From: Eudromia elegans
Taxonomy: Eukaryota; Chordata; Aves; Tinamiformes; Tinamidae
DNA length: 64,000 nucleotides
Direction: 5' to 3'
Assembly: GCA_003342815.1 (NCBI GenBank)
Contig: PTEX01000138.1
Coordinates: 1,144,543 to 1,208,542, forward strand
Shown here: piece after piece, positions 47,899 to 52,041 of the stretch
Position numbering within the stretch: position 1 is the stretch's first letter
Layout: each line of letters starts with the position of its first letter
Position numbers and translations under genes: made by a program
Notes under the pieces: model-generated
Database searches by the model: none
The model's input: the letters and a program-made list of their open reading frames with translations, nothing else
What the model was told of the DNA's origin: nothing

Positions 47899-47911
47899 AT
47901 GGCAGAGCCAG
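47899..47911 (+). CDS. STRIT1: STRIT1 coding exon 1 (first four codons)
   Basis: ATG GCA GAG CCA G, then donor gtaaga. The 13-nt coding part lies in a Kozak-like context (gaaggATGG). An exon this small is invisible to ORF length filters. Mammalian STRIT1 also splits after the first four codons. Confidence 0.93.
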
Positions 47912-50900
47912 GTAAGAAGAACAGCTCGGTGTTAGCGTGACAGTGTTCTTAAAGTCCACAAATGTGAGGGTAACATTACCTGAAAATACTCAGGTATACC
48001 TATTTGTGAGGTACTAGTGCTTGCGTGGTAATTTATACATTTTGCCTTTCAGTACTGAAGTACAGTCAGCACGAAAGCTAATTCTGTTAAAAGCAGTGAG
48101 TGAAGCCAGAGTAGCCTGGCTTCTCCCGAACCCCTTTTGAATCACACCAGCTTTTCTTTTTCTTTTTGTAGCTGTGATTTTAAATTTTTTTTTCTGAATC
48201 TTTTTTGAAGTTTTTCTCCTGGAGGACTAATAGGAGGTGATTGACTGCATGGGTTAAACACTGGAAATTAGTGTATCACCCCCTGATAAACGTAACACTG
48301 CATTAAAACTCTGAAAAATAGATTTTTTTTTTTTTTTTTTTGCTGAGGTTATCTTCAGATAACTTAATATTGCATTTTGTCAGATGTGCCTTTAAACTGA
48401 CTAAGAAATAAATGGGTCTGTGTTTAAAAAAAAAAAAAGAAAAAGAAAAAGCTGAAATCCAAGTATAATGCTGCATGAATGCTTAAAAATGTAGATTTTA
48501 AACACACAAAGCGTGAGAGCCAGGACAAAATCAAACTTTGTTGTCAGCTGTTATAAGCTGATTTTCACTCAAAAGCAAACCAATATATATGATATTCACC
48601 ATCCTTTCTATCTAGCTCTCTCTCAAGAGGCTTGCATGGTAAAATACTGCATGAGAGCGGTGTGTAGGCTGCTGCTCTGGTGCTGCACTGGTAGGACAAG
48701 TACTCGCACAAGTAACTGGTGTGAAAGTCACAGACACCTGCGTGGCTGCACCGACAGCTTCCAGAGCCGCCGTGTCCCTCTCGAGCAGAGGGCAGTGCCG
48801 CGTGCCAGGGCCAGCGGCACGCCGCGGCGCTCGGGTACAACGGCACACCGACGGTGACTCTGAGTGTCACCACGGACACCGCGGTGCCGAGCCACGAGCT
48901 GGTGCTGGCCTGGCCCACGCAAGGCACCGGCTGGGCCCCGACCCTGCTAGTTCTGCTCTTGAGTCAGGTTTTAGGGCAGTTTGTCCTGGCAGAACGTCGG
49001 GAACCAGCGTGTTGTCAGCTGGGGATGGCAGCAGGGGCTTGGGCAGCTGGAGCTTCTGGCATGGAGATGCAGGAGGCGACTTAGTGTCGCTGCCATTACC
49101 CCAGAATTTGTCCTTACAAAGCAGATGCCCTCAAAAAGCCATTTGGACATGAACCAATTAAACCAACAATTGGGGTTTTTTAGGAGTGATCATTTTCTTG
49201 AGTGATCTCTTTTAATGGCCTGCTGGCACTTAATGGCATGGACGCAGTTTGCATTTTCTCTTCGCATCAGGACCTCTCAGTCTAGCAGGTTATTCTTGCA
49301 AGGGGCTTTTCAATATTGCTCTTAGTCTATTTCTTACACATTAAATTGAATGTGTAAAAATGTGTAAAATGAATAAAAGCATTGACTGGGAAAATTGACT
49401 GCAGCTTGCACAGATACTAATCTGTGCATGATATTCAGTATACATTGCATGTGCATGTGCATGTTTTATATGTGCCTAGGGGCATTAAAACATAGGTGGA
49501 AGGCAGTTCATCCCTGTTTCTGAGGCCCTGCAGATGGGTTCTTGGCTTCGGTGTCTCGCCCAGTCCAGTGTCAAGCTTCAGCCTCTCTTATTCATGGTAA
49601 AACACAGTGTTTGGGGCAGGTGCTTTGCTCCAGCCCAAACCCGGGGTGCTGGTCTGGTGACACATGGGGGCGCAGAGCAGGTGACCTCGTGGTCACTCCT
49701 GTTCTCGTGCTGTGAAACCCCATGCGGAGCGGCCTCCGCGCTGCCCTGCACCCCCTGCCGCGGCCTCCGCGCTGCCCTGCGCCCCGCAGCCTCCGCGCTG
49801 CCCTGCACCCCCTGCCGCGGCCTCCGCGCTGCCCTGCGCCCCGCAGCCTTCGCTCCGCGCTGCCCTGTGCCCCCCGCCGTGGCCTCTGCGCTGCCCTGCG
49901 CCCCCTGCCGCGGCCTCCGCGCTGCCCTNNNNNNNNNNNNNNNNNNNNNNNNNNNNNNNNNNNNNNNNNNNNNNNNNNNNNNNNNNNNNNNNNNNNNNNN
50001 NNNNNNNNNNNNNGCGGCCTCCGCGCTGCCCTGCGCCCCCCGCCGCGGCCTCCGCGCTGCCCTGCGCCCCCCGCCGCGGCCTCCGCGCTGCCCTGTGCCC
50101 CCCGCCGCAGCCTCCGCGCTGCCCTGCGCCCCGCAGCCTTGGCTCCGCGCTGCCCTGCGCCCCCTGCCGCAGCCTCCGCGCTGCCCTGCGCCCCGCAGCC
50201 TCCACGCTGCCCTGCACCCCCTGCCGCGGCCTCCGCGCTGCCCTGCGCCCCGCAGCCTCCGCGCTGCCCTGTGCCCCCCGCCGCAGCCTCCGCGCTGCCC
50301 TGTGCCCCGCAGCCTTCGCCCCGCGCTGCCCTGTGCCCCGCAGCCTCCGCTCCGCGCTGCCCTGCACCCCCTGCCGCGGCCTCCGCGCTGCACTGCGCCC
50401 CGCAGCCTTCGCTCCGCGCTGCCCTGTGCCCCCCGCCGTGGCCTCTGCACTGCCCTGCGCCCCGCAGCCTTCGCCCGCGCTGCCCTGCGCCCCGCAGCCT
50501 TCGCCCCGCGCGTCCTAGCGCAGCGGAGCCGCCGGCCGGCCCCGGCGCCCTGCGGGAGCTGTTCCCCACCAACCGGGATCCACCCGCTGTCTGTAGCAGG
50601 AGCTGCACAGAAACGGCAGGCAGAGTGAGACCGTTCCTGCAGCTGTAGCTCTACCCGGTACCTAAAGGTCTTTAAAGGAAACAGGTATGGAATTCCCATG
50701 TGGAAAAGGAGACCAACGTTTCAGAGCAGGATTTTACCTTTGTGGTCTTTGGTTGCTTATCTGGTCTACCTTTTGGTTTATGTGTGTTCCGTATGCTGGC
50801 TCTCCTTCCTGGTGTATATATCACCACGGGTATCAGATGAAACATCGTTGTGTTGTGTGGAGCCTTAAAAACTCGTGTGGAAATCCTGGAATTGCTGAGT

Positions 50901-52041
50901 TTCGCTGCCAGGTCCGTGAGCCTGGTCCAAGCTCTGCAGGGTGCCGTGACTAGTTTTAGGTTGTTGGTTACCCCTTTCAGGAGCCTGCTGGCCTTATAGC
51001 TGCAGAAGAAGGTGCTTTAAAATGCTCTAGTATGCTGGTATCAGATGTGATCCCAAAGGCTGCTCTTTCTACCAGGCTTCTGATATTTGCAGAAAACTTA
51101 GAATGATCTCTGAAACGGGGATCCTGTACAGAAGCGCGTTTATTTAAAGCTCCGTCTCTGCTTCCGACGCAGCTCGTGTCGAGCCCTCGCTCTGCAGAGG
51201 GCACTGGCGTTCCCCACGGCCTCGGTGTTATTTACTGGCTTGCCCTGGTAATAGTAGACAGCGCAGACACAATATCACATGTGTGTGACGGGCCCAGAGC
51301 AGCCGGACGAGCGGGACGTGCTGCAGGCAGACCCGGCCTGTGGCTGCCACGTCACTGCTTTGCCCCACAGCGGAGACTTGCACGGTGTTTTCTTACCTGG
51401 GGGTGGGGAAAACCACATCACTGGGTAGTTGCTTTGGCAGTACCTCCTTCCTATCAGTAGTGGCTGGGCAGGAGATGACTAAACCAGGCCCCTGATTTAT
51501 CTTCGAGAGGAGCAGCAGGTCCCTAGGGCACACGCTGCCTGCCCCGGGCAAGTTAATGCTGCATGGAATGGGTATAGTGTAAAATAACCATTCCATTGCT
51601 GCTGCCCAGTGCTGCTCCGCGGAGGGGCCGTGCGTGGCAGCGGGGGGATCTGCTCAGGCAGCCGCTGTCACCCCGGTGCCGTGCAGATGTCCCCCGTGTG
51701 ACCTACAGCCCCCCAGGACAGAGCCCTGCTGCCGTCGTCTCCGGCCTGCTGCTGTTGGCGGTGCTGAGCCCTGCGCCCTCCGCTGTGTGTCTTCATTAGG
51801 GGGCCTGCCAAGACGTGGTGACTCCGTGATAAAAATAGCAGTGACAGACTGTGTGAGCCCCCAGGAGGCTCGTGCTGTGGCGAGTGCCGTGTTCAGAACG
51901 CGCGCGCTGCGGCCGTGCTGAGAAAGCCCCGTCTTCTCTCTTTCAGCAGCGGTCCCTCTTTCGCGTCTTGTCGTACCGATTCTCCTTGGAGTCGGCTGGA
52001 TAGTGGGTTGTGCACTGATGGTTTACATTGTCTTCTCTTGA
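47899..52041 (+). CDS. STRIT1: STRIT1 (DWORF), SERCA-activating micropeptide (gene-level entry, two coding exons)
   Basis: Join 47899-47911 to 51947-52041: a 35-residue peptide beginning MAEP, with membrane core [20 protein letters not shown] and C-terminus VFS. Known biology: DWORF is a tail-anchored sarcoplasmic-reticulum peptide of heart and slow muscle. It raises Ca2+ uptake by binding SERCA and displacing inhibitors such as phospholamban. Support seen here: the same length as human as I recall it, the shared MAE start, the VPILL-GWIVGC core, a Pro at position 15 and the VFS end. The first exon encodes only four residues plus one base, a strong-context ATG (A at -3, G at +4) precedes gtaaga, and the second acceptor is in phase. 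Position between PLCH1 and MME fits the human locus. Intron 1 is 4.0 kb and carries a minisatellite and an assembly gap. Confidence 0.95.
49722..50515. repeat. C-rich minisatellite, 26-36 bp units, interrupted by an assembly gap
   Basis: Consecutive variants of gcctccgcgctgccctgcgc end in either cccccgcc, ccctgcc or cccgca. They produce 31-bp and 26-bp units, with some longer units carrying an extra cttcgct or cttggct. About 25 units are visible. The G-rich complement has repeated GGGG and GGG runs. The 85 N bases in the middle show that assembly failed here, so true length is unknown. Confidence 0.93.
49929..50013. other. Assembly gap (85 N)
   Basis: A run of 85 unknown bases entirely within the minisatellite. 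The repeat continues in the same register type on both sides. Confidence 0.99.
51947..52041 (+). CDS. STRIT1: STRIT1 coding exon 2 (transmembrane segment and stop)
   Basis: Acceptor gtcttctctctttcag. It completes the split Ala codon and encodes the luminal-to-membrane segment ending MVYIVFS, TGA at 52039-52041. The acceptor is a tandem CAGCAG, so use of the second AG (exon start 51950) gives a 34-residue form lacking one Ala. Exon 2 continues to 52046, where a strong GTAAGT donor begins, leaving only five bases after the stop. Confidence 0.95.

Follow-up and report, generated by a model that had tools for sequence, protein, structure and literature searches.

The apparent gene desert between a gene of phospholipase C (PLC) type and the neprilysin gene MME in the bird Eudromia elegans raises the question of whether a very small protein-coding gene lies within it. 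An original prediction, made from the letters of a 64,000-nucleotide stretch of contig PTEX01000138.1 (the window; C44:1144543-1208542 in the assembly that we searched), had placed there a hidden copy of STRIT1, the known vertebrate gene that encodes DWORF, a very small peptide of heart and slow muscle that stimulates the calcium pump. We followed up this prediction computationally and find strong support for a STRIT1 orthologue whose sequence is intact. It is highly probable that the window carries such an orthologue on the plus strand, with three exons and encoding a single-pass membrane peptide of 34 or 35 residues, DWORF, which by orthology would act as a SERCA activator. The parts of the gene are the following.

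47899..47911, plus strand: coding part of exon 1, 13 nucleotides (nt), ATG GCA GAG CCA G, giving MAEP and the first base of codon 5; ATGGCAGAGCCAG
47912..51946, plus strand: intron 1, 4035 nt, GT-AG
51941..51949, plus strand: tandem acceptor TTTCAG/CAG/ (NAGNAG), both frames open
51947..52046, plus strand: exon 2, coding at 51947-52041 (95 nt, end of codon 5 onward)
52047..52130, plus strand: intron 2, 84 nt, GT-AG, acceptor TTTGTCCTGCAG
52131..52260, plus strand: start of a predicted noncoding exon 3 (3' untranslated region), placed by its splice signal; 52260 is the end of the displayed stretch and not of the exon

All coordinates given in the original prediction were confirmed, as were its strong ATG, its GT-AG introns and the joining of its 13-nt and 95-nt coding exons, which are in phase and yield a frame of 108 nt, or 35 codons plus stop. 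The start codon at 47899 stands in the context AGAAGGATGG, with A at -3 and G at +4, and the exon ends at 47911 with the donor CCAG/GTAAGA. Exon 2 is preceded by a polypyrimidine tract (16 of 17 positions at 51927-51943, then TTTCAG) and its acceptor reads CTTCTCTCTTTCAG/CAGCGG, the first exon base being 51947; the stop codon TGA occupies 52039-52041 and the donor GCA/GTAAGT follows 52046. The predicted acceptor of exon 3 reads TTTGTCCTGCAG/G at 52131, and within that exon there are weak poly(A)-like hexamers (ATTAAA at 52156, TATAAA at 52220 and 52229). Since the stop codon is located 5 nt upstream of the last exon junction, the message should escape nonsense-mediated decay under the usual 50-nt rule. 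Exon 1 encodes the first four residues only and exon 2 the rest, and the mouse gene is reportedly divided likewise (Nelson 2016), with exon 1 limited to the first four residues and exon 2 holding the remainder.

Two frames that would dispense with splicing were tried and rejected. Read through into intron 1, the frame of exon 1 terminates after 13 residues, while reading upstream from exon 2 into intron 1 encounters a stop codon at 51919 before any ATG, so that exon 2 is unable to start its own frame there. Intron 1 also holds a GC-rich minisatellite (49729-50511; period 31, higher-order periods 57 and 93 bases), which is broken at 49929-50013 by an assembly gap of 85 N, the sole run of N in the window.

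The assignment to STRIT1/DWORF made in the original prediction is borne out by profile and structure databases. The Pfam model for DWORF (PF22030) matches residues 1-35 of the 35-residue peptide with 54.3 bits and an E value of 1.4e-14, against a curated cut-off of 27 bits, and exon 2 alone scores 44.7 bits; searched against PDB, exon 2 alone lists solely human DWORF (7mpa, E 2.6e-8). We also searched the whole assembly (943,969,204 bases in 723 contigs) with this profile, a search that scores only the best candidates from a first look (38 of 38 scored here), and the single PF22030 match reported was exon 2 of the window, over the cut-off and with no internal stop; none of 14 control genomes gave a PF22030 match.

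Chance is rejected as the origin of this resemblance by the profile match and the assembly search, as well as by resampling and shuffling of the window. In an ungapped BLOSUM62 comparison with residues 6-35 of human DWORF, the exon-2 stretch scores 101, as opposed to 42, 32 and 26 for the next-best places in the six frames of the window and to best scores of 19 to 42 in eight order-1 Markov resamples. The pattern of exon 1 plus its donor, ATGGCNGARNNNGGTRAG, which was chosen after seeing the site and is therefore partly post hoc, occurs once in the window, both strands counted, and in none of 100 dinucleotide shuffles; the shorter pattern [AC]AGGTAAG occurs at three places on the plus strand, the exon-1 donor among them. 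These results also bear on whether the locus could be a noncoding RNA with a DWORF-like open reading frame arisen by accident, an idea that has a precedent in mammalian DWORF, which was initially annotated as noncoding according to the parts of PMC13368986 and PMC4996849 consulted. A family match over the full length of the peptide, together with an exon-2 score far above the best of both the window and the resamples, makes this explanation extremely improbable.

A second possibility is that the peptide is a different regulin (phospholamban, sarcolipin or myoregulin type), or some other small membrane protein with no more than a resemblance to DWORF; a short, single-pass build is common to all regulins (PMC13368986, in part). 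PF22030 was nevertheless the sole Pfam family listed for the peptide at E values up to 10, in a program that discards most matches above about 0.1. Moreover, phospholamban and sarcolipin have loci of their own elsewhere in the assembly (myoregulin was not searched for), with one match reported for each: 110.8 bits and an open frame of 52 residues for phospholamban (L003), and 57.9 bits and an open frame of 31 residues for sarcolipin (L002). Both resemble DWORF as short SERCA-binding membrane peptides and differ from it as inhibitors in which Asn stands where DWORF has Pro15 (section 2.4 of PMC13368986). Here this position holds Pro in place of the inhibitory Asn, and we consider a different regulin hardly credible.

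Having assigned the peptide to DWORF, we compared it with the human protein (residues 2-36 of PDB 7mpa). The alignment agrees with the shared features named in the original prediction, namely the MAE start, the VPILL..GWIVGC core, Pro15 and the VFS terminus, and both peptides have 35 residues, of which 22 are identical and 27 identical or similar. Identity is 5 of 11 residues in the N-terminal region and 17 of 24 in the remainder, which begins at residue 12, and the retained residues include Leu12, Pro15, Ile16, Leu17, Gly21, Trp22, Ile23, Val24, Gly25 and Tyr31. The 13 differences (human to window) are K4P, G6A, S7V, T8P, F9L, H11R, L13V, L19G, I20V, I27A, I28L, I30V and V32I. The most hydrophobic 19-residue stretch spans residues 12-30, with a Kyte-Doolittle mean of 2.51. 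Leu12, Pro15 and the motif Gly21-xxx-Gly25, all present in the E. elegans peptide, are given functional weight in section 2.4 of PMC13368986, and Pro15, Tyr31 and the groove-facing residues in PMC8203291 (in part). The latter source names Leu17, Ile20, Ile23, Val24, Ile27, Ile28 and Ile30 as groove-facing, and three of these seven (Leu17, Ile23 and Val24) are identical here.

Several observations weigh against an intact and functional DWORF. The N-terminus has diverged (5 of 11 residues identical, with Lys4 changed to Pro and an additional Pro8), the membrane segment has a lower mean hydropathy than that of human DWORF over the same residues 12-30 (2.51 versus 2.92, with Gly in place of Leu19), and at four of the seven groove positions Ile of the human peptide is replaced by another aliphatic (Val at 20, Ala at 27, Leu at 28 and Val at 30). 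In addition, the third exon is predicted from a splice signal only. The changes at the N-terminus and in the groove speak for a STRIT1 that has recently decayed or fallen silent in this lineage, its sequence still intact, yet unexpressed or encoding a peptide that no longer activates SERCA. This view must be set against the start codon, the four splice sites, the frame and the stop, all of which are intact, and against the retention of Leu12, Pro15, Gly21, Gly25 and Tyr31; a neutral gene of 35 codons would be unlikely to have kept so much of its core (17 of 24 residues), together with a frame consistent with splicing, since birds and mammals diverged. We therefore regard decay or silencing as quite unlikely. 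From the sequence we infer that STRIT1 is a working gene here, as the original prediction held, and that it is transcribed, translated and active on SERCA in this species.

If the E. elegans peptide acts as its orthology suggests, a short juxtamembrane helix at its N-terminus would be separated by a break at Pro15 from a C-terminal helix (Leu17 to Ser35), which would sit in the SERCA groove that is otherwise occupied by phospholamban and sarcolipin. With Pro in place of the Asn of the inhibitors, DWORF would displace phospholamban and sarcolipin, for both of which this genome has open frames, and raise the turnover of the pump, and the reuptake of calcium in ventricle and slow muscle would be sped up. 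Binding of DWORF to the phospholamban groove of SERCA is termed a hypothesis by the paper that puts it forward (PMC8203291, in part). According to the same source and section 2.4 of PMC13368986, Pro15 corresponds to Asn34 of phospholamban and Asn11 of sarcolipin, and the gain in calcium handling is lost when Pro15 is replaced by Ala.

The acceptor of exon 2 has a further feature that the original prediction had missed. The 3' end of intron 1 reads ...TTTCAGCAG, a CAGCAG tandem, so that splicing could give 35 residues if the first AG is used, or 34 if the second is used and the exon starts at 51950. The two predicted forms differ by one Ala at position 5, and both pass the PF22030 cut-off (54.3 bits for the longer form, 49.2 bits for the shorter). 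Judging from the DNA, the tandem acceptor probably yields both length forms. A pair of isoforms of 34 and 35 residues, with or without one Ala through splice variation at exon 2, is described for mouse DWORF in the part of PMC12233064 seen, and a 2026 review attributes the same variation to DWORF in general (PMC13368986, in part); a 2017 paper notes disagreement on the length of human DWORF, given as either 34 or 35 residues (PMC5428527, in part). A CAGCAG acceptor, as seen at the DNA level in this genome, would explain such length pairs. The likeness to the mouse lies in the pair of lengths, predicted here, whereas the N-terminal sequence differs from that which PMC12233064 prints for the mouse.

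Upstream of the start codon we noted one candidate promoter element.

47830..47839, plus strand: TATA-like or MEF2-like element CTATTTAAAG, 69 nt before the ATG

This element is a consensus match only, with one mismatch to the MEF2 consensus, YTAWWWWTAR. No perfect match to the consensus patterns of MEF2, CArG, GATA or M-CAT sites was found on the plus strand at 47400-47950, and the five E-box cores on that strand of the interval are of little meaning.

The original prediction had placed the gene between PLCH1 and MME, and the window was examined for both. The relevant features are the following.

12696..12902, plus strand: open frame that includes the C2-domain exon of a phosphoinositide-specific PLC (Pfam C2, 36.1 bits; best PDB matches PLC delta-1 and zeta-1)
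19015..21120, plus strand: open frame of 702 codons, downstream of the PLC exons
59419..61932, minus strand: 3' end of MME (neprilysin), two exons matched to neprilysin
61855..61932, minus strand: MME exon, neprilysin match with E 5.5e-13
59419..59517, minus strand: last exon of MME (59422-59517 versus neprilysin, E 1.7e-10, reaching the C-terminus; stop codon at 59419-59421)

MME was thus found as the neighbor, on the minus strand, even though the M13 Pfam model gives the 26-residue piece at 61855-61932 only 14 bits, under its cut-off of 24.5. As the MME stop is at 59419-59421, the two genes have a tail-to-tail arrangement, about 7 kb apart from the start of exon 3 to the MME stop. The opposite flank of STRIT1 holds a C2 exon of PLC type on the same strand as STRIT1; it is consistent with PLCH1, the putative paralogue here. 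A stretch further upstream (11394-11531), which we took to be part of this PLC gene, had no Pfam match above a cut-off. The 702-codon frame may be the long last exon of this PLC gene, an assignment that is a guess, and against PDB at E values up to 1 it gave a single, unrelated match (E 0.61). The human order is presumably the same, MME, STRIT1, PLCH1, as is the relative orientation. Human neprilysin cleaves the luminal tail of sarcolipin (PMC9338278, in part). Since the passages around the five mentions of DWORF in that source report no cleavage of DWORF, we make nothing of the adjacency of STRIT1 and MME, which is probably a coincidence.

DWORF is reported to be conserved from lamprey to human (section 2.4 of PMC13368986), and an orthologue at this place is therefore expected and of low novelty. 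What lies here is a relative of a known gene, as was to be expected, and no new kind of gene or class of system; the sole modest addition is the tandem acceptor. In the portions seen of the literature listed for DWORF or STRIT1 together with birds (PMC8203291, PMC13368986, PMC7711957, PMC6886504, PMC9338278, PMC5428527, PMC13220464, PMC5397475, PMC6330444) we found no description of a bird DWORF, though mention elsewhere is possible; there, the two chicken papers and the duck paper name DWORF as background only. As to the gene being hidden, this holds for gene callers that work by the length of open reading frames and fails for a profile search, because the Pfam model finds the gene directly.

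It is conceivable, though on the basis of one genome we think it rather doubtful, that the tandem acceptor is an old switch that has been kept, one Ala more or less rotating the helix at the N-terminus against the Pro hinge by roughly one residue, and that bird DWORF with its Pro4, Pro8, Gly19 and Ala27 is a retuned SERCA activator, perhaps for fast avian hearts. What the locus does offer is an instance of a 35-residue gene, with four codons in its first exon, that is recognizable in raw sequence, and one more DWORF sequence from outside the mammals, from which residues that tolerate change can be read. In addition, it indicates that a bird genome contains a tandem acceptor able to give the variation by one Ala that is known from mouse.

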